Source: an uncultured Bacilli bacterium
GTDB lineage: Bacteria; Bacillota_I; Bacilli_A; RF39; UBA660
Direction of reading: 5' to 3'
Length of the DNA: 43,859 nucleotides
Assembly: GCA_947628235.1 (NCBI GenBank)
Contig: CANQZC010000011.1
Span: 1-43,859 of the forward strand
Positions 21,657 through 34,106 of the stretch are shown piece after piece. A model generated the notes under the pieces. That model searched no databases. It saw only the letters and a list, made by a program, of their open reading frames with translations, and had not been told where the DNA came from. Position numbers and translations under genes: made by a program. Each line of letters opens with the position of its first letter. Within the stretch, counting starts at the first letter, position 1.

Positions 21657-21682
21657 AAAAAAGGGTATTTAACCCCTTTTTT
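21657..21682 (-). terminator. Terminator of the VWA surface protein gene
   Basis: AAAAAAGGG (21657-21665) pairs with CCCTTTTTT (21674-21682). On the minus strand it ends in a T run. Confidence 0.85.
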
Positions 21683-24600
21683 AGATAGTTTGTTTCATTC
21701 TTTTCTTCCTTCTTAAAATGGTAAGAAGAATAGAAACAAGAACTAGAACTCCTCCTAATAGGTAGAATAGGAAAGTACCTTTTCCACCAGATTCTGGGAA
21801 TTCGATAGCTTGTATATTGATAAATTTTGCTTCTTTTGGATGACTTACTGTAATGGTTCCAGTACTATTTTGTTCTTCTTTTACCTTCCATCCTGAAAGA
21901 TTCTTTTCTTTTACTTGATAAGTAGATTGATCTGGTAAATCTTGAAGAAGAATCGTTTCATTCTGTTTTAGTTTGACCGTAGAACTATAAGAACCATCAT
22001 CATTTCGTTTGAAAGTAAGTGTTCCATTTTCTTTTTCTTCTTTCGTTGTAATATCATATTTTTGATAAGGATAACTTTCTTTTGTAGCAGAACTTTGACT
22101 TGGTGTAATCGTAATAGTAAATTCAAATTCCTGTTCTGATGTTGTTCCTTCTACTGTTTTTGTAACTAGTAAATCTCTAGGTTCAAAAGCATTAGTAAAA
22201 TAAATTTCTTCTTGAAGAATACCCGTATCTCCAGAAACTCTACGATGTTCTTTCTCAAAGGTACTAGTAGGAGTACTACTATCCATTGTTTTATCTACTG
22301 TCATGGTTCCATTTCTATCATAAGATAAACTACTTTCTTGTTGAACATGAGAAACTTTATCAAGAACAAAACCTGCTTTTATCAATTCTTCTGTTAGTTC
22401 TTCTTCTACACTGTATTTTGCTCCAGAAGAAATATTATTTAATAAGATTCCTTCATTATTTTTTAAACTAAAATGAGCAGTATTGGGTTTTTGATTATTC
22501 CATTCCTCTTCTGGCCAACTCTCTGGCTTCGTTTCAGGTTTATTTTTATCTGTATAACCAAAGAATAAAGTCGTTGTTAGATAAGTTGTGTTTGTAGCGT
22601 ATTTAGAAGAAACTTCCGCAATACCAGACTTATTTGGATCTAGTGTAGAAATAACAAATTTTGTAAGAGATTCATGACCATTTTCTTGGAATTTCCAATT
22701 GTCGTTTGTTACTTCTTCTTTTGGTATCAAATAAACTTTAGATACCCAGAATTCCATAAGTCCAAGAGAATGAGTATTGTCTTTTAATTTATACTCTTTT
22801 GTCTCTGTAGAAGTAAGTTCTTCTATATTATCTACATAAGTTGTTGTACCAACACGATTTCCTAACTCTTTGGATTCATTATAAAGTCCATAGACATAAG
22901 GATCTCCCTCAGAGTCATCTCCAATATAGATATAGTAATCTTTATTATCCTTCTTATAGATAGATAGTGTATTATCACTATCTTGTAAAAGACCTTGATT
23001 ATTCGTTTTAATATCAATAGAACTAATATCTCTTTGCCAAGTCATAGAGTAAGGATTTCTTTCTAGTTTTACAAAACTTAAATCACCTTCTAGACCAGCT
23101 ATTTGAACTTGGAATGGAAATTCAGTATTGGTATCAAAGAATGGTTCACTATCTTTTTCCATCGTAACTGTTTTCGCAACCATTAATAAGGTATCAGTAA
23201 CCGCTAAACGTCCATTATTACCAAGATAACTATCGACAATGATATTGGATTCTTGCTTACTAGTAGCGCCTGTTGAATTACTACTAATGGTAGGTAAATA
23301 GGTATTAGAAGCAGTAGAAGTAGTATTCGATGTTTTTCGAATAACACTTTGTGCCATATCTCCTACTCTAAGACCGCCAGGACGAGTCGCAACTACCCAA
23401 TCTGTAATAGAACTATCATAGGTTGGTTTTTGCTTGCTATAAGGCTCCCAAACATGTTTAGAAGGGCTATACCAACTTAAAAATTCTCCATTCGAGAAAT
23501 CACCTTCTAGACCAGAACCAAATTCTTTTCCTTGTCTAGAAATAGCAACTCTCTTTTTCGTTCCTTTATATCCTACAATTTTCTCTTTATTTTCAACACC
23601 ATTTTCTTTTTCATATATTGGTTCATTTTTATTTGGAACATAATATTCTAGAATCACATAGTACCAATCATTCGCTGTAAAATTACTAGACTCTTTTATC
23701 GTTTCTCTTTCTTCTTTAAACTTCTTGAATGTTTCATTATCTGATAAATCAATTTCTTCATAGACTCCATTTGATCCTTTTTTATCGGTATCTTTTACTT
23801 TATACAATTCTAAAGGTCTTTGATAAGCATAATATCTATTTGCAGGACTAGGAGAGAAAGAGAAAATAGCATCTCCTCGAGTTCTAGATTCTTGAGTATC
23901 TGTGACATATCCATCATAAGAAGTATTACTATAATAGTTAGAATAGAAATAAACGATACTATCTTTTTTATTAGCTTTTAAATATTCTTGATTTACTTTG
24001 GAAACATCGACATCTAATTTATCTTCTGTCATGATATCATCAGATACACCAACCGCATAGAAGATACGAATTGGTAAAGACATTTCTGGATCTCCTACAT
24101 TGGTAGAATAAGAAATTACATTTCCATTTTCATCTTCTTCAATTTTGGCAACTAACATAGGAATCGCACTTGCTGGAATATTAATATATAACATTTGATC
24201 ATATCCAGTATCTGGCATAGACATTCCATCTTGATTGATATAGTTACCACTATCTTCTACCCAAATACGAATATCACTTAATTTATAAGTAATATTATCT
24301 TCTTTGTCATAGTTTGGATTTAAATGTTCTTCATTCCTTTTTTTATCGTCTTCCGCAAAACGGTAGATTGTATATTTTATGTGATTAATATCATCTCCGG
24401 CTCTTGTCTTTGGTGTTTCTTCTGGAAGCGTTGGAATATATTGTAAAGCAGTTTCTCTATCTAGATAGTAAGTATCTCCATTATCCCAACTACCTTGTTT
24501 TTGATCTGATAATCTATTTCCGGTACTGTCATACCATCCTGACTGAAAGTTATCTGTCTTTGATACAAAGTCAGCATCATAGACAGCTGTTCTTACAATT

Positions 24601-26741
24601 CCATGCATTTCATTGAAAAGAAGAAGAGCCATATCATAACTACCAGCATTATTGGTAGCGTTTTCTGTTCCCTCTACTAAACCAGTAACAGAGATAGCTT
24701 TATTTTTTACTTCCATATAAAGACCAATAGGATCTGCATAAGTAATGGAATCAGAAACTCCGGCACTATTATTTCCTTCGATAGGAACAAATACATTACT
24801 AGTTACTTTATTTAAGACTTGATTAAAAATTTCTTTTAAACTAACTGCTGTAATATTATAGAATTCAGAAGCATAGTTAATATTTCCAACCACATCTTCT
24901 TTGGTAACAGCAGCAACTTTTCTACCATTTACTACTCTTTCTTTAGCATATATACCAAGACCACTATTATTATCTACTGTAGTAGGGAGTTGGTTGAATA
25001 CTGCTTGTCCTTTAATTTCTTGAGTAAATGTGCCTTCTTTATCTTTCGTTCCACCATGCCATCCATTATTTTGAGCGGTACTTTGGTTAATGGTTTCATG
25101 TTCAAAAGGAATTGTATATTTGTTAGAGGAACTTGAACTCTGTTCAAAACGAGGTTTAAAAGTATTGCTAGAACTACTCTTTTCAACAACTGGGAATTCT
25201 TGGGTAACTTCGCTAGTTGCTTTTATCCATTCTTCCCATTTACTATAAGCTTGAGTAACAAGTTTTTGATCTTTTTCACTTGTAATTTTATCATTTGAAG
25301 TAAGTTCTTTTTTAAAATAATTTTTAGGGTCTAACATTGGATAGACTCTAGCAACTGCCCAAGCATCATCATCGGCTTTGGATTCTAGGTCTACACCAAC
25401 CGTATAAATTTGAAAACCTTGTTCAAAGTTTTCCATAAATGTTTCATAATTTTTTTCTACTGCTGATTTCATATAAGAAGCAGTCATTAAAGTTTGTAAT
25501 ACAACAACAGAAGACCAATCATTAACATGGTCTGATCTTTGTGTAGACTCATCCCAATCTGGATTATACCATTGTCCATCCGAAACCGTATTTGATCCTC
25601 CATCTGTCATGATAATGGCAGCTGGAATACGCGCTACAGTTCTTTCTTCTCCAGTAGCAGATAAAGTAGCAGAGTAAGTTGTTTCTGTAGCGTTTGCTAA
25701 CTGTTCTAAACCAGCAGCAATACCAGAGTGAGTATTTGTTCCACCACGGCGTTCAAAACTATGGGTCTCTAATGTTTTTCCCTCAGCATCTTTATCTTTT
25801 GTAGTGGCAACCACTCTAAAGGTAGAGACATTAACATAGTTTTCTTTATGATCTCCACTAGCTCCATGTCCATCAAAATATGGGGCAATGTAATAGTACA
25901 TTTTATCTTTTAAAATTTCATGAAGTTTTTTTAAATTTTCTGTGGCGTAACTTCCATTACTACCAGTTCCATCATTTAGGTATTTATCATCGTAGACGAA
26001 ACTAGAATGAGTTTTTCCTTTTTCTGGGTCGACCTTATCATTGGTTGATTTAATTTCAGAAATTGGTAATTTATTTGCTTCATAATGCGCTAAAGGCATA
26101 ACTAGAGTAGCGCGGTTATCATATACGACAACACTAACTCTATTTTCTTTATTTTGTTCCATTAATGCTTTAATTGTCGCGTCTGTTGCGTCAATCATTT
26201 CTAGTAATCTAGTTACTACAAAAGAATCTGGTGTATCTTTGTAATCTGTTTGATCTTTATCGATTTCATCCCCCATAGAACTAGAAATATCTAGGATGAT
26301 AACTAAGTCGATAGGACTAGCAGGATATTGATGAATTACTTGACCACTACCGATTGTCGAAAAGACATGTAAGAAATCAGTATTTAATCCAATAGATTTA
26401 TTTCCAAGAGTAAGGGTATTATTTTTCCAAGTAATATTATCTACCGTAGATTCTGTACCATAAGCAAAGACTGTTTTATCTGCCCACATTTTACCAGCAT
26501 TTCTAGAACCTAACGAATCTGTTAAGATTAGGTTTTTATAACTATTCATAGTATTTGGGTCAGATACTCTAGTAACTCCAGGAGTAGGAGAACTTAAAAA
26601 AGTAAAATTTTCTCCTTCTCGTGAAATCATATTTTGAACAAGGCGTGTTAATAATTCTGGAGAACCTATACTAGATAGGAATAATCCAATGCATAAAAGA
26701 AATCCCAAAAGTTTCAAAAATGTGGATTTTTTCTTCTTCAT
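21681..26741 (-). CDS. Giant VWA-domain surface protein with sortase signal
   Basis: This 1686-residue protein is secreted and wall-anchored. A signal peptide spans about residues 5-27. A von Willebrand A domain, about 145-480, has an intact MIDAS: DISSSMG (from about 151), GGTNTHSG and MTDGGSN. A long middle follows with repeated beta-rich stretches. Near residues 1540-1640 is an isopeptide-type pilin domain (LLVTKTVEGTTSEQEFEFTI ... QVKEKNLSGWKV) of the FctA/Spy0128 kind. The C-terminus is FPESGG, a hydrophobic helix, then RRKKR. It matches the LPxTG layout but has F for L and S for T. It looks like a pilus-tip or adhesin subunit. No sortase or major pilin is nearby. ATG 26741 is preferred to 26744 by spacing from GAGGTGA. 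Confidence 0.88.
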   Translation of the reverse strand: MKKKKSTFLKLLGFLLCIGLFLSSIGSPELLTRLVQNMISREGENFTFLSSPTPGVTRVSDPNTMNSYKNLILTDSLGSRNAGKMWADKTVFAYGTESTVDNITWKNNTLTLGNKSIGLNTDFLHVFSTIGSGQVIHQYPASPIDLVIILDISSSMGDEIDKDQTDYKDTPDSFVVTRLLEMIDATDATIKALMEQNKENRVSVVVYDNRATLVMPLAHYEANKLPISEIKSTNDKVDPEKGKTHSSFVYDDKYLNDGTGSNGSYATENLKKLHEILKDKMYYYIAPYFDGHGASGDHKENYVNVSTFRVVATTKDKDAEGKTLETHSFERRGGTNTHSGIAAGLEQLANATETTYSATLSATGEERTVARIPAAIIMTDGGSNTVSDGQWYNPDWDESTQRSDHVNDWSSVVVLQTLMTASYMKSAVEKNYETFMENFEQGFQIYTVGVDLESKADDDAWAVARVYPMLDPKNYFKKELTSNDKITSEKDQKLVTQAYSKWEEWIKATSEVTQEFPVVEKSSSSNTFKPRFEQSSSSSNKYTIPFEHETINQSTAQNNGWHGGTKDKEGTFTQEIKGQAVFNQLPTTVDNNSGLGIYAKERVVNGRKVAAVTKEDVVGNINYASEFYNITAVSLKEIFNQVLNKVTSNVFVPIEGNNSAGVSDSITYADPIGLYMEVKNKAISVTGLVEGTENATNNAGSYDMALLLFNEMHGIVRTAVYDADFVSKTDNFQSGWYDSTGNRLSDQKQGSWDNGDTYYLDRETALQYIPTLPEETPKTRAGDDINHIKYTIYRFAEDDKKRNEEHLNPNYDKEDNITYKLSDIRIWVEDSGNYINQDGMSMPDTGYDQMLYINIPASAIPMLVAKIEEDENGNVISYSTNVGDPEMSLPIRIFYAVGVSDDIMTEDKLDVDVSKVNQEYLKANKKDSIVYFYSNYYSNTSYDGYVTDTQESRTRGDAIFSFSPSPANRYYAYQRPLELYKVKDTDKKGSNGVYEEIDLSDNETFKKFKEERETIKESSNFTANDWYYVILEYYVPNKNEPIYEKENGVENKEKIVGYKGTKKRVAISRQGKEFGSGLEGDFSNGEFLSWYSPSKHVWEPYSKQKPTYDSSITDWVVATRPGGLRVGDMAQSVIRKTSNTTSTASNTYLPTISSNSTGATSKQESNIIVDSYLGNNGRLAVTDTLLMVAKTVTMEKDSEPFFDTNTEFPFQVQIAGLEGDLSFVKLERNPYSMTWQRDISSIDIKTNNQGLLQDSDNTLSIYKKDNKDYYIYIGDDSEGDPYVYGLYNESKELGNRVGTTTYVDNIEELTSTETKEYKLKDNTHSLGLMEFWVSKVYLIPKEEVTNDNWKFQENGHESLTKFVISTLDPNKSGIAEVSSKYATNTTYLTTTLFFGYTDKNKPETKPESWPEEEWNNQKPNTAHFSLKNNEGILLNNISSGAKYSVEEELTEELIKAGFVLDKVSHVQQESSLSYDRNGTMTVDKTMDSSTPTSTFEKEHRRVSGDTGILQEEIYFTNAFEPRDLLVTKTVEGTTSEQEFEFTITITPSQSSATKESYPYQKYDITTKEEKENGTLTFKRNDDGSYSSTVKLKQNETILLQDLPDQSTYQVKEKNLSGWKVKEEQNSTGTITVSHPKEAKFINIQAIEFPESGGKGTFLFYLLGGVLVLVSILLTILRRKKRMKQTI

Positions 26742-26787
26742 CATTTCACCTCACTCTACGGCTATTTTCTATTTTATATTCTAATTT

Positions 26788-29979: not shown

Positions 29980-29993
29980 TATAAAATAAAATG

Positions 29994-30002
29994 TGCTATA
30001 AT
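29994..30002 (+). promoter_or_regulatory. Extended -10 promoter of the OB-like/giant protein unit
   Basis: TGCTATAAT at 29994-30002. The -35 region lies in the preceding T tract and is weak. Confidence 0.6.
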
Positions 30003-30024: not shown

Positions 30025-30264
30025 ATGGAATACGAAGTAGGAAAAATAGTAGAATTTGATGGACATTGTGGTAGAATTGTTTCTTCGCAAGGAGAATATT
30101 TTTTTACCGAAGATGATATCGAAGATAGTGTGATTGCGAAAGGAAGATGTGTTGTTTTTCGTCCCGAAGAAATTCAAGGAAAGAAAAGAGCTTTCTTTGT
30201 TCATGGCGTAGAATATATTTTAAATCAAAAACAAAAAGTAATAGATAGACATTCGTCACAGTAA
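30025..30264 (+). CDS. Small OB-fold, cold-shock-like protein
   Basis: This 79-residue protein has the layout of a cold-shock-like beta barrel: VGKIVEFDGHCGRIVSSQGE, YFFTEDDIED, KGRCVVFRPEE, KRAFFVHGVE. The usual RNP1 (KGFGFI) and RNP2 (VFVH) motifs are replaced by HCGRIVS and YFFTEDD, so it is at best a distant relative. A nucleic-acid-binding role is inference. AGGTAGGA at 30013-30020 precedes the ATG. It ends 14 bases before the 1267-residue protein and shares its promoter, so the two products may work together. Confidence 0.6.
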   Translation: MEYEVGKIVEFDGHCGRIVSSQGEYFFTEDDIEDSVIAKGRCVVFRPEEIQGKKRAFFVHGVEYILNQKQKVIDRHSSQ

Positions 30265-30278
30265 AGGTAGGGATGAAG

Positions 30279-33200
30279 ATGAATTTTAGAATTCGGTTAG
30301 AAGATAGAATTGCTCGTGTCCGGGAGAAATTAGAACAAGGGAATTTTAAATTTTCTAAAGATGATTTAAACACATTTTCTGATTCCCAAGAATTACGCAG
30401 TCTTTTTCTCCAAAAACTAAAAGAACAACTCCCTAATTGGACACCCACATTAAAAAAAGCTTATATAGATTTGATTTCTAGTGCGGAAGATTTTAGTTTA
30501 ATCGATGTTGATGTCATTCGTACTCTTAGTCACTATGATATAGAGACAGGGGATTTATCAGAGATAGAATCCTATATGCCTTTTTTAGGAGATGTTGATG
30601 ATGTTGTTAACCATCTACAGGAAAAACTAAAAGACCCTTCTTACCATGCTATCTCTGGAGCGATGGGAGACAATGTTATTCTTTCTTGTATTGAACAAGG
30701 AAGAATCGATTTAGTGCGTATGACGCGTTCCATTCAACTTTCTCACCTTTCTCAAAAAGCGATAGAAAAAATTGCGAAAGAGTATAATGAACCCATCCCT
30801 CCCTATGCTTTTACAGATATAGACGCTATTTTAGCGATCCGTCAATCGAATGATGATTATCTTACTTTTCAAGAATATATGGAGAAATATCCAGATGATT
30901 TGGAGAAATTAAAAGAAGAATATTACTCTCCTAAAAGAAGTATTCTAGGAACCAATTTGATGAACTTTCAAACTCTTTATGAGACAATTCCGGAAGCAGA
31001 AAAAGAAAAATTCTTAATTCGAACTTTAGAAGGAGGACTTTATCCTTTCTTTCTAGAATGTGCTCCTAAAGAACTCATTTTAAGAGAACAAGATACCATT
31101 ATTAGAAAAATCAAAGAAGGCGTTATTAATGTTTCTAACATGATAGAGAATGATTCCCTTTTATTAGAAAATCCAGAATATGTAAAATTATTAATCCAAG
31201 CAGGAAATATCTATCATGCGATGGAAAGCCCTATCATTTCTAATTTTTTAGAAGAAATCAAGAGTTATGGAGATATGCTAGGTTATCCTCTTTATATAGA
31301 TATTGTTCGAAATACCAAAATTCGGAAAAATATTTTCTCTAACGAAGAATTTTTAAAACAATTATTACTAGCGAATCTTGTAGAAGCAAGTCCTGGCTAT
31401 TTTTATCCAGAATATAATCAGTCTAGCGAAACGAAAGAAATGATTGCGGCTCAAAGAAAGATCTTTGAACTAGATATGGAGTTAGGAACTTGTACTAGAA
31501 ATTCTCTTACTGGGGTAAACCAAGAAGAAGTTTTAAAAGAAATTATTTCTAGAAAAAGATATGATTACTTTCTTGAAAATGGTTCTAATTTTACGAATAT
31601 AGAAAAAATTTCGCTTACCGAAGAAGAGTGTCAAGAATTTTTAGATTGTTTAGGAAATAATGTCATTTCTTATGAGAGTATTTTTTCTAGAATGCCTCTT
31701 TTAGTTCTTAAGACACCAACTTTGTTTCATGGTTTCTTAACAGCGTATCCAGATATTTTAGAAAAGATGATGGATTATATTAAGCATCATGAAGAATTAA
31801 GTTCTTACTATACAGAAGAGTTATATCAAACAGTAAAAGGTTACTACATTGAAAAATCAGATTTAAGAGAAGATAGCTTAGATTCGATTATGCATGCTTT
31901 AGGGCCTCAAATTCTAAGATATATAGAAAATGAAAACATTATTGCGTTAGCGCAACAAAAGAAGGAAATGGTAGAACAACTCCTTCAACTTTTTAAACCA
32001 GAAAACTATACTCTTCAAGATGCTGAAATCATTTATGATAGTTTAAAACAGTATTCTTATGGAAAAAAATATCCAGAAATAGTCAATATTTTTTCTGATA
32101 TCAAACATTCTTTAGAGGATAATGATGGAAAATATATTCAAAAATTAGAAGAATTAGTTTCTAGTATGGATGAAAAATTCTATCGGAGAATGCAAAAGAG
32201 TTATCCTGATTATTTAGAAATATGTAAAAAGAATCCTGCTAGTTTCTTAAAGGAATTGGCTTTTAAAGCGAAAGAAGGAAAGGCGGAAGAGTCTCAATTA
32301 GCGTACGATATTCTTCATTTTATATCCGATTATTATGTGGCAACGAAAAGAGAACAATATCGGGATACTTATCAAATGTCACGAGATCTTTCTCTCATTC
32401 AAAAATATGACCCAAAAGACTTAGAAACAAAATTTATGAAACACTGTATGGAGTATTATCCTTTCCGTGTAGATTTAATTGAAAAATTAAAAGAAGCGGG
32501 GATTTCCGAGGATTTAGCCATCGATTTACTACAAGTATATTTAAAGAAACCAATTCTTCGGGGACATGACATTAAAGAATTACAAAAGCAAATGAAATTC
32601 TTTGTTCCTTTTGCCAAAAAGTATTTTCAAAGTTGTTATAGTGAAGAATATCAAAGAAGTCATGCTTTTCAGGTGTCACAGACGCAAGGACGAATTAAAT
32701 TTTATGATACCTTACCACCTTGCGAAATCGATAGGTATCAAGTTTTAGTTTCCCTTCATTTAGGAAATATCCTAGATACTTTATTGGGAGAAGAAAATGA
32801 AAAATATTTTGAACTTTTAAAATCTACCATAGCAAAGTATAAATTATTAGATATGCCAGCATGTTATCAAAAATTTATGGATAAAGAAGGAATAGGAATT
32901 TCTCAAAATGTGAATAATATTGCTGGATTCATATCTTACTTTAAGCAAATTTATGATGCAGAAAGAAAACGGTTAAACGCTACGAATAAAGAAGATACAC
33001 CAGTCTCTTTTACCATTACTAGGATTTTAAAAGAAGGAGAGGCATATGGGGGATTTTCAAAAGTTTATGGACATATTTTAGGAACAGAAAATGCTCGGTT
33101 AATTATGTCAAATCCAGGACCAAATGCGGCTGCTATAGGATTAAGTGATAATGGAAGATTAAAAACAGCTGTGGAAGATACGAAGATATCTTTTCAAAAA

Positions 33201-34082
33201 GAGTCAGTTACGATTCCGTCATTTGCGGGAGATATAGAACTTTCTAGTGGAAAAACGATGTATGTATCGGTTGGAAATGCAACACATCCTAGCAATTTAA
33301 CGCATGGAGAAAGAACCGGTGCTTGTATGCGTATCGGGGGAGCAGGAGAGACCCTATTTAATTTCTGTTTACAGAATGAGAATGGTTTTCATATTCGGTT
33401 TGAAGATTCCAAAACAGGAGAATATATTTCTAGGGTCTCTGGCTTTCGAAATGGAAATACAATCTTCTTAAATGAATTACGAAATAGTGTAAATGGTGAA
33501 AAATATTCTGATGAAGAAGTAATAGATGCTTGTAGGAAAGTCGCAGAATCCTTAATAGAACGGAGTAAAGGAAGTAGTTGTCCTATCGAAAATGTCGTTG
33601 TTTATAGTGCGTATGCTACTCAAAATATGCCAATGACATCTTTAGGAATAACAAATAATAAATTAGGTTTACCAACCTTCTATTCAGATATTACTAATTC
33701 TGGAATTATTCTAGCGACTACGGAAGAACCTTTCGCACCAGTGAAATTAAATCAACCAAATCTTCCTCACTATCCATTAGCTCGTGAACGGGCAAAAGAA
33801 GGAAACTTTGAAGAAATGTCAGACATGATTTATCGTGTTCATTCTGTCAAAAGAATTCTTGAGGGACAAAACTATATGTTTATTGAACCACCTACTTTTC
33901 AAGATGAAATTGAGTACGCTATCGCATCCCAAGACTGGTATATTGCTATCGATAAGGAAGGAACCATTTATGAAGAGTTGATTCCTGGCGATGAGCGAGC
34001 TTTAGAAGAACTAGAAACAGCTAGAAAAATCATTCAAGAAAGAAAGATGACTCCAGTCGATGAAGAAAGTTACCAAATCTAA
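30279..34082 (+). CDS. Giant protein of unknown function, 1267 residues
   Basis: I do not recognise this protein. It has no signal peptide or membrane segments, so it is probably cytoplasmic. Residues 1 to about 900 are a long series of amphipathic helices with a repeat-like or solenoid look, rich in L/E/K/Y. The last about 350 residues differ and read as a mixed alpha/beta domain. It contains ATHPSNLTHGERTGACMRIG, GFHIRFEDSKTG, then RVSGFRNGNTIFLNELR (about 1000-1070). The Cys-Met-Arg-Ile-Gly-Gly segment, flanked by His and Arg, could be an active site. ATG 30279 is chosen because AAAGGTAGGG (30263-30272) is too close to ATG 30273. It is second in a unit with the OB-like gene and ends in a terminator. 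Codon use matches its neighbours. Confidence 0.8.
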   Translation: MNFRIRLEDRIARVREKLEQGNFKFSKDDLNTFSDSQELRSLFLQKLKEQLPNWTPTLKKAYIDLISSAEDFSLIDVDVIRTLSHYDIETGDLSEIESYMPFLGDVDDVVNHLQEKLKDPSYHAISGAMGDNVILSCIEQGRIDLVRMTRSIQLSHLSQKAIEKIAKEYNEPIPPYAFTDIDAILAIRQSNDDYLTFQEYMEKYPDDLEKLKEEYYSPKRSILGTNLMNFQTLYETIPEAEKEKFLIRTLEGGLYPFFLECAPKELILREQDTIIRKIKEGVINVSNMIENDSLLLENPEYVKLLIQAGNIYHAMESPIISNFLEEIKSYGDMLGYPLYIDIVRNTKIRKNIFSNEEFLKQLLLANLVEASPGYFYPEYNQSSETKEMIAAQRKIFELDMELGTCTRNSLTGVNQEEVLKEIISRKRYDYFLENGSNFTNIEKISLTEEECQEFLDCLGNNVISYESIFSRMPLLVLKTPTLFHGFLTAYPDILEKMMDYIKHHEELSSYYTEELYQTVKGYYIEKSDLREDSLDSIMHALGPQILRYIENENIIALAQQKKEMVEQLLQLFKPENYTLQDAEIIYDSLKQYSYGKKYPEIVNIFSDIKHSLEDNDGKYIQKLEELVSSMDEKFYRRMQKSYPDYLEICKKNPASFLKELAFKAKEGKAEESQLAYDILHFISDYYVATKREQYRDTYQMSRDLSLIQKYDPKDLETKFMKHCMEYYPFRVDLIEKLKEAGISEDLAIDLLQVYLKKPILRGHDIKELQKQMKFFVPFAKKYFQSCYSEEYQRSHAFQVSQTQGRIKFYDTLPPCEIDRYQVLVSLHLGNILDTLLGEENEKYFELLKSTIAKYKLLDMPACYQKFMDKEGIGISQNVNNIAGFISYFKQIYDAERKRLNATNKEDTPVSFTITRILKEGEAYGGFSKVYGHILGTENARLIMSNPGPNAAAIGLSDNGRLKTAVEDTKISFQKESVTIPSFAGDIELSSGKTMYVSVGNATHPSNLTHGERTGACMRIGGAGETLFNFCLQNENGFHIRFEDSKTGEYISRVSGFRNGNTIFLNELRNSVNGEKYSDEEVIDACRKVAESLIERSKGSSCPIENVVVYSAYATQNMPMTSLGITNNKLGLPTFYSDITNSGIILATTEEPFAPVKLNQPNLPHYPLARERAKEGNFEEMSDMIYRVHSVKRILEGQNYMFIEPPTFQDEIEYAIASQDWYIAIDKEGTIYEELIPGDERALEELETARKIIQERKMTPVDEESYQI

Positions 34083-34106
34083 AAGGACTAAACAAGTCCT
34101 TTTTTT
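34081..34106 (+). terminator. Terminator after the giant gene
   Basis: AAAAGGACT (34081-34089) and AGTCCTTTT (34095-34103) form a 9-bp stem with a 5-base loop and a T run. It touches the TAA stop at 34080-34082. Confidence 0.9.

Follow-up and report, generated by a model that had tools for sequence, protein, structure and literature searches.

The locus raised the question of what function could be assigned to a 1267-residue protein that had been described, from the letters of the DNA alone, as belonging to no recognised family. The window, meaning the whole analysed stretch of 43,859 nucleotides from an uncultured Bacilli bacterium, carried the corresponding gene on its forward strand.

The large gene and its conserved motifs

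30279-34082, forward strand: large protein gene, an open reading frame of 1267 aa with no internal stop and with its stop codon at 34080-34082

An in-frame alternative ATG was located at 30273, six bases 5' of the ATG at 30279; the orthologues of the large protein begin at the Met of 30279 (MNFRI...). Between close orthologues, dN/dS was 0.12 for the C-terminal part and 0.23 for the N-terminal part, thus the gene was concluded to be under purifying selection. No significant match to the protein was found in Pfam, NCBIfam, PHROGs, PADLOC or the PDB sequences. The best PHROG row (E 0.009 over 31 residues) was taken as noise, and the PADLOC defence models gave 0 matches up to E 1.

Four C-terminal motifs had been pointed out in the preliminary description, namely GERTGACMRIGG (residues 1010-1021), HIRFED (1038-1043), SGFRNGNTIFLNELR (1054-1068) and VYSAYATQ (1108-1115). 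Column counts over 38 homologues confirmed that both the reading frame and the motifs were real: G1010, C1016, R1018, G1021, L1026, N1058, G1059, N1060, S1070 and Y1165 were kept in 100% of the sequences, and N1006, R1012, R1057 and E1244 in 95-97% (97% for R1057). The conservation held less well for two of the four motifs. The His of HIRFED, H1038, was present in only 79% of the homologues and absent from divergent members, hence it was probably no essential catalytic residue, and VYSAYATQ was only loosely conserved.

Elsewhere in the window, the reverse strand encoded a 1687-aa protein (21681-26744), probably a large surface protein, in which Pfam placed a von Willebrand A-type domain and DUF7601 near the C-terminus.

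Predicted structure of the large protein

30279-33200, forward strand: N-terminal alpha-solenoid, residues 1 to ~974, from two models
33201-33731, forward strand: GNAT-like core, residues ~975-1151 (181-357 in the numbering of the head model), from Foldseek and VIA
33732-34079, forward strand: C-terminal subdomain, residues 1152-1267, with Y1165, a DWYI strand and D.RA..E, from conserved columns and secondary structure

The model of residues 1-864, built with 22 homologues (pLDDT 83, pTM 0.50), was nearly all helix arranged in repeated pairs, and residues 795-974 were helical too in the model of the C-terminal part. A Foldseek search with the solenoid model returned generic helical-repeat proteins alone, at E 0.02 and worse. 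Naming the repeat family was given up, because the rows (transportin, exportin, PPR, TPR) were generic, with TM values below 0.2. For the preliminary description this meant support for its helical-repeat platform, as far as fold class goes, and, from both structure models, for its distinct head.

The head was modelled with AlphaFold2 as residues 795-1267 (473 residues, 38 homologues) with a pLDDT of 89 and a pTM of 0.83. In model numbering, the core consisted of two strands, two short helices, strands 242-249, 255-264 and 267-272, a helix at 284-301 and strands at 311-315 and 347-353, which is the order found in GNAT acyltransferases. The best 50 rows of a Foldseek search against the PDB were all GNAT proteins (GCN5, PCAF, NatD and others), with a top E of 2.1e-3 and a probability of 1.00. 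All 50 rows shown by VIA-align were GNAT proteins as well, at Z 6.7-7.9, NatD being the top one with Z 7.9 over 145 residues; the tool itself warns that a Z under 8 may mean merely a common arrangement. The GNAT assignment was therefore considered of good, not perfect, strength because of the modest Z: the predicted head has the core topology of the GNAT fold, at modest scores. In the BFVD, the best row for the head model was an unnamed phage protein (E 9.5e-6). Sequence profiles gave no such assignment, since no GNAT model of Pfam or NCBIfam matched the large protein up to E 1 and none of Pfam matched the divergent family members up to E 10. Accordingly, 'no recognised family' remained true of the sequence libraries and did not remain true of the fold, and the 'sharp change in composition' noted earlier is the transition from the solenoid to the GNAT-like domain near residue 975.

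The conserved polar site and the missing CoA loop

33306-33341, forward strand: GERTGACMRIGG signature with Cys1016, residues 1010-1021, in the inter-helix loop before the next core strand
33447-33458, forward strand: RNGN, residues 1057-1060, at the hairpin turn between core strands; NGN invariant, R 97%

The invariant or nearly invariant positions round Cys1016 formed the pattern GxRxxxCxRxxG ... RNGN ... S ... Y. DSSP placed the GERTGACMRIGG signature between the helices H215-219 and H230-238 of the head model, so that Cys1016 is predicted to lie in the alpha1-alpha2 loop, which in GNAT proteins lines the acceptor pocket. In canonical GNATs a CoA/pyrophosphate-binding loop, [RQ]xxGx[GA], follows strand 4, and GNAT toxins carry the CoA loop as well. 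This loop, searched for as [RQ]xx[GA]x[GA], was present in 0 of the 39 sequences of the family alignment. Consequently, catalysis with acetyl-CoA was unsupported and the domain could be inactive; by its sequence, the head is not a canonical GNAT.

As the most economical guess, to which we gave a probability of about 0.5, it was proposed that the large protein may be a non-canonical acyl or aminoacyl transferase forming half of a two-gene module. The head would be an active transferase without the usual mode of CoA binding; its Arg/Cys/Asn/Tyr site would transfer acyl or aminoacyl groups to a substrate, which the solenoid would select for the head.

Alternatively, the head might be a degenerate, non-enzymatic GNAT fold, and the protein a large scaffold whose conserved Arg/Cys/Asn site serves to bind a partner or ligand. 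Such a role would agree with the absence of the CoA loop from all homologues and with the solenoid making up most of the mass. However, the Cys, Arg, Asn, Ser and Tyr that are invariant across very divergent homologues, and the G..T..C signature that recurs in phage relatives, resemble an active site more than a surface patch. A purely binding role was considered unlikely.

The small partner gene

30025-30264, forward strand: small partner gene, 79 aa, cold-shock/OB-like (GKIVEFDGHCGRIVSSQGEYFFTEDDI...), conserved beside the large gene
29992-30002, forward strand: possible extended -10 (TGTGCTATAAT) before the small gene, read from the sequence, weak

The TGTGCTATAAT element was regarded as weak because it was missed by the consensus scan, whose promoter count equalled chance. 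The large protein does not stand alone, and the preliminary description made no mention of the adjacent cold-shock-like protein. When the site was compared across the genus, the 79-aa frame was present where the large gene was present, and an iterated search of the loci found the small gene beside 26 of the 29 long-form loci (L050-L078), a count that includes a fusion and a decayed large gene. It lay either upstream or downstream of the large gene, and the stop codon of one frequently overlapped the start codon of the other. In the natural fusion (locus L073), a single open frame of 1459 aa contained both domains, at E 1e-21 and 7e-158. The profile of the small protein alone found 26 places in 291 genomes, and 23 of them adjoined a large gene; the other three were an orphan behind another gene (G218, contig C4), an ordinary cold-shock protein (G215) and a weak match (G321). 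Across 25 pairs, the pairwise distances of the two proteins correlated with r 0.60, and 0 of 5000 permutations reached as high a value; common ancestry of the pairs would give such a correlation too. The large and the small gene are thus a real two-gene module, being adjacent, mostly overlapping, co-varying and once fused.

No partner was detectable beside the short forms (~620 aa, L080-L086) or beside several divergent homologues, hence the partner is unnecessary in some lineages. Partner matches inside the large genes of short forms L082-L086 were discarded as false positives, as they lay in the same open reading frame.

Compared with genuine CSD proteins, the partner gave an hhalign E of 2.8e-5 and a score of 28.2, whereas 60 column shuffles reached at most 18.1, and its profile matched the genuine cold-shock protein of G215 at E 7.6e-4. 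The Pfam CSD model matched only one of the 30 members (E 0.0033), below the Pfam cut-off, and the match to a PDB Csp had an E of 0.06. The RsgI N-terminal domain, as an alternative family, scored marginally in the PDB and similarly to Csp (E 0.022), and no RHH match was found for the partner. The aromatic RNP1 motif (K-G-F/Y-G-F-I) was absent, the consensus being G-x-x-G-x-I without aromatics. These comparisons supported the name cold-shock/OB-like for the putative partner; its binding of nucleic acid was taken as a guess, because it fell below the Pfam CSD cut-off and did not have the aromatic RNP1. Within the proposed transferase, the small protein would bind the head or an RNA and thereby control or guide the head.

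Distribution and relatives

A single-sequence search of 57 genomes recovered homologues in the genus and in one other genus, and a paralogue on contig C8 of the same genome. With profile A1, made from the C-terminal part of the large protein, the domain was detected in 71 out of 291 genomes belonging to the same family, with up to four matches per genome, and in 37 loci among the GTDB contigs, whose titles named uncultured Bacilli, Bacillales, Bacillota, Erysipelotrichaceae, Tenericutes and Candidatus Coprovivens. A broader sample of the class yielded matches in the same family only. The homologues were ~600-1746 aa long; the C-terminal 420 aa were common to them, and the N-terminal part varied in length and sequence. 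The short forms of ~620 aa (L080-L086, L008, L017) had the signature R-[AS]-G-N-C-F-R and no detectable partner, and represented a separate subfamily. A divergent set (L041-L049, L079) had the same core: hhalign gave an E of 1.9e-36 for one of its two groups and of 2.8e-17 for the other, the latter value being that of the family profile against the group holding the phage protein ORF68L.

ORF68L of Microcystis phage MaMV-DC, with the signature GEYTKCCQ...GAGETC, was linked through this divergent set. A degenerate DNA pattern of the phage signature retrieved cyanophage-like loci, with one real phage protein of 1114 aa and four spurious frames of 38 residues. The 1114-aa protein (IMG/VR, L114:3-3344) had the Cys core followed by what appeared, by eye, to be a second GNAT-like domain. 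A phage or plasmid origin of the module was rejected, since the C-terminus from the window matched nothing among phages and plasmids, profile A1 matched nothing among viral contigs, and a cyanophage protein was reached by a divergent member only. Judged by sequence searches, the family was seen only in one family of uncultured Bacilli, with remote relatives in phages.

The genomic site

34081-34103, forward strand: intrinsic terminator after the large gene (TAAAAGGACTAAACAAGTCCTTTTTTTCATATA); the same terminator in 4 empty-site relatives

The gene order in the genus was P-type Ca ATPase, lipoprotein, module, dacB, spmA and spmB. Six genomes of the genus had the module at this position, the copy in one of them being decayed. 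In five others (G005, G007, G008, G010, G011) the site was empty, the lipoprotein gene being followed by dacB after a gap of 30-89 bases. In 4 of the 5 empty gaps the terminator followed the lipoprotein gene (e.g. TAAAAGGACTAAATAGTTCTTTTTTTCATATA in G008); because these gaps hold the same terminator, the module was concluded to lie between the lipoprotein gene and its terminator. The neighbours of the module in other genera were unrelated housekeeping genes. In three genomes, different family members (L073, L076, L079) lay 2-4 kb upstream of a mraZ-rsmH-like division cluster.

The position before dacB-spmA-spmB, shared by six genomes including the one with the decayed copy, could suggest a protein linked to sporulation. 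This role was ruled out as highly improbable by the empty sites in five congeners with intact dacB-spmA and by the variable location, given the unrelated neighbours in other genera and the paralogue on another contig.

Gain, loss and exchange bore on a further alternative, a toxin-antitoxin or anti-phage module. In this reading, the large protein would be a GNAT-fold toxin that inhibits growth and acts, for instance, on aminoacyl-tRNA or the translation machinery; the small protein would serve as its antitoxin or sensor, and recognition would fall to the solenoid. The two genes were tightly linked, adjacent and co-oriented, as is characteristic of type II toxin-antitoxin pairs. Their presence was patchy (71 of 291 genomes, with the site empty in five congeners), and copies occurred in tandem, namely two (L051; two modules in G002) and, over L061:1-10785, three and probably four large genes with small genes after the first two. 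In G006 a fragment of the large gene contained stops and the small gene was still open, and in G218 the small gene was an orphan, both being expected if toxins decay first. The orphan (L198:3572-4994) overlapped the end of an unrelated 398-aa open reading frame, and a gene resembling Abi_2 by eye was located 1.4 kb downstream of it.

As after a later exchange, the dS from G001 was lower for the module at the window site (0.77 for the large and 0.57 for the small gene) than for the neighbouring genes (0.94-2.95). The module at the C8 paralogue gave 0.87 and 0.38, and the genes around it, apart from two upstream ones, 1.15-2.18. Exchange between lineages would explain the low module dS, but codon bias could as well. 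Directly upstream of that paralogous module (L154:5412-6748), a pentapeptide-repeat-like protein and a HAD-like hydrolase were encoded, with dS of 0.60 and 0.57 from G001, as if the four genes had moved together.

The toxin reading also draws on established GNAT-fold toxins that acetylate aminoacyl-tRNA (PMC9177977, PMC7595197), but neither the RHH (DUF1778) antitoxin of such modules (PMC9177977) nor a CoA loop occurred here. Moreover, the neighbours were housekeeping genes, no plasmid or phage match was obtained, and a defence island was rejected because the PADLOC tally over 148 neighbours consisted mostly of generic models and had no control, and so was not diagnostic. The same results gave no support to the link to defence, toxin or signalling proteins suggested at the outset. 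A toxin-antitoxin or anti-phage role would suit the ecology and was regarded as a tentative possibility. Combined with the proposed transferase, it would amount to an undescribed module of toxin-antitoxin-like or defence type, whose GNAT-fold enzyme would work independently of CoA (for example on aminoacyl-tRNA, with a catalytic Cys), aimed by the solenoid and gated by a cold-shock-like RNA-binding partner; this combination was considered doubtful.

Based on these comparisons, the finding is genuine, and both richer than first read, as a conserved gene pair, and more ordinary, as a known fold. It offers a testable identity for several of the largest proteins without annotation in a big, uncultured gut lineage with small genomes, and it defines a conserved gene pair named by none of the libraries used. 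A GNAT-like head that does work without the CoA loop would put a very common fold to a new chemical use, and a pair that proves to be a toxin-antitoxin or defence unit would represent a new architecture for such units.

Comparison with known systems

The large protein resembled the GNAT superfamily (GCN5/PCAF, NatD/NAA40) in the strand-helix order of the core, and its best structural matches, over ~145 residues, were found there. It differed in that no sequence match was detectable and the CoA loop was missing; further differences were the RNGN hairpin, the invariant Cys of the alpha1-alpha2 loop, an additional C-terminal subdomain and the very long attached solenoid.

With the GNAT toxin-antitoxin modules (TacAT, AtaT, KacT) it shared a two-gene operon with a GNAT-fold member and a patchy distribution. 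The toxins of those modules are small canonical GNATs paired with RHH (DUF1778) antitoxins (PMC9177977), whereas here the large protein was ~600-1746 aa long and its partner OB/cold-shock-like.

The partner resembled cold-shock proteins (PF00313) in its length and in the order of its conserved Gly/Val/Phe positions; it differed in scoring below the Pfam cut-off and in being without the aromatic RNP1.

PcfJ (PF14284) also combines a helical N-terminus with a C-terminal domain bearing an early conserved Cys, and a PcfJ-like phage protein appeared as one weak row (E 0.08) of the fold search. Membership in PcfJ, suggested by the motif layout and this row, was rejected on the basis of no Pfam match and an hhalign probability of 0.2-0.3%. 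A PcfJ-family protein was encoded elsewhere in the same genome (G000 contig C1:89450-89878, L092; E 2.5e-31), such proteins being rare in the taxonomic class of this genome (4 of 60 genomes).

The phage proteins ORF68L of MaMV-DC and L114 of IMG/VR had the G-x-x-T-x-x-C core of the divergent bacterial members. They are unnamed hypothetical proteins that differ in their N-termini, with no cold-shock-like partner seen.
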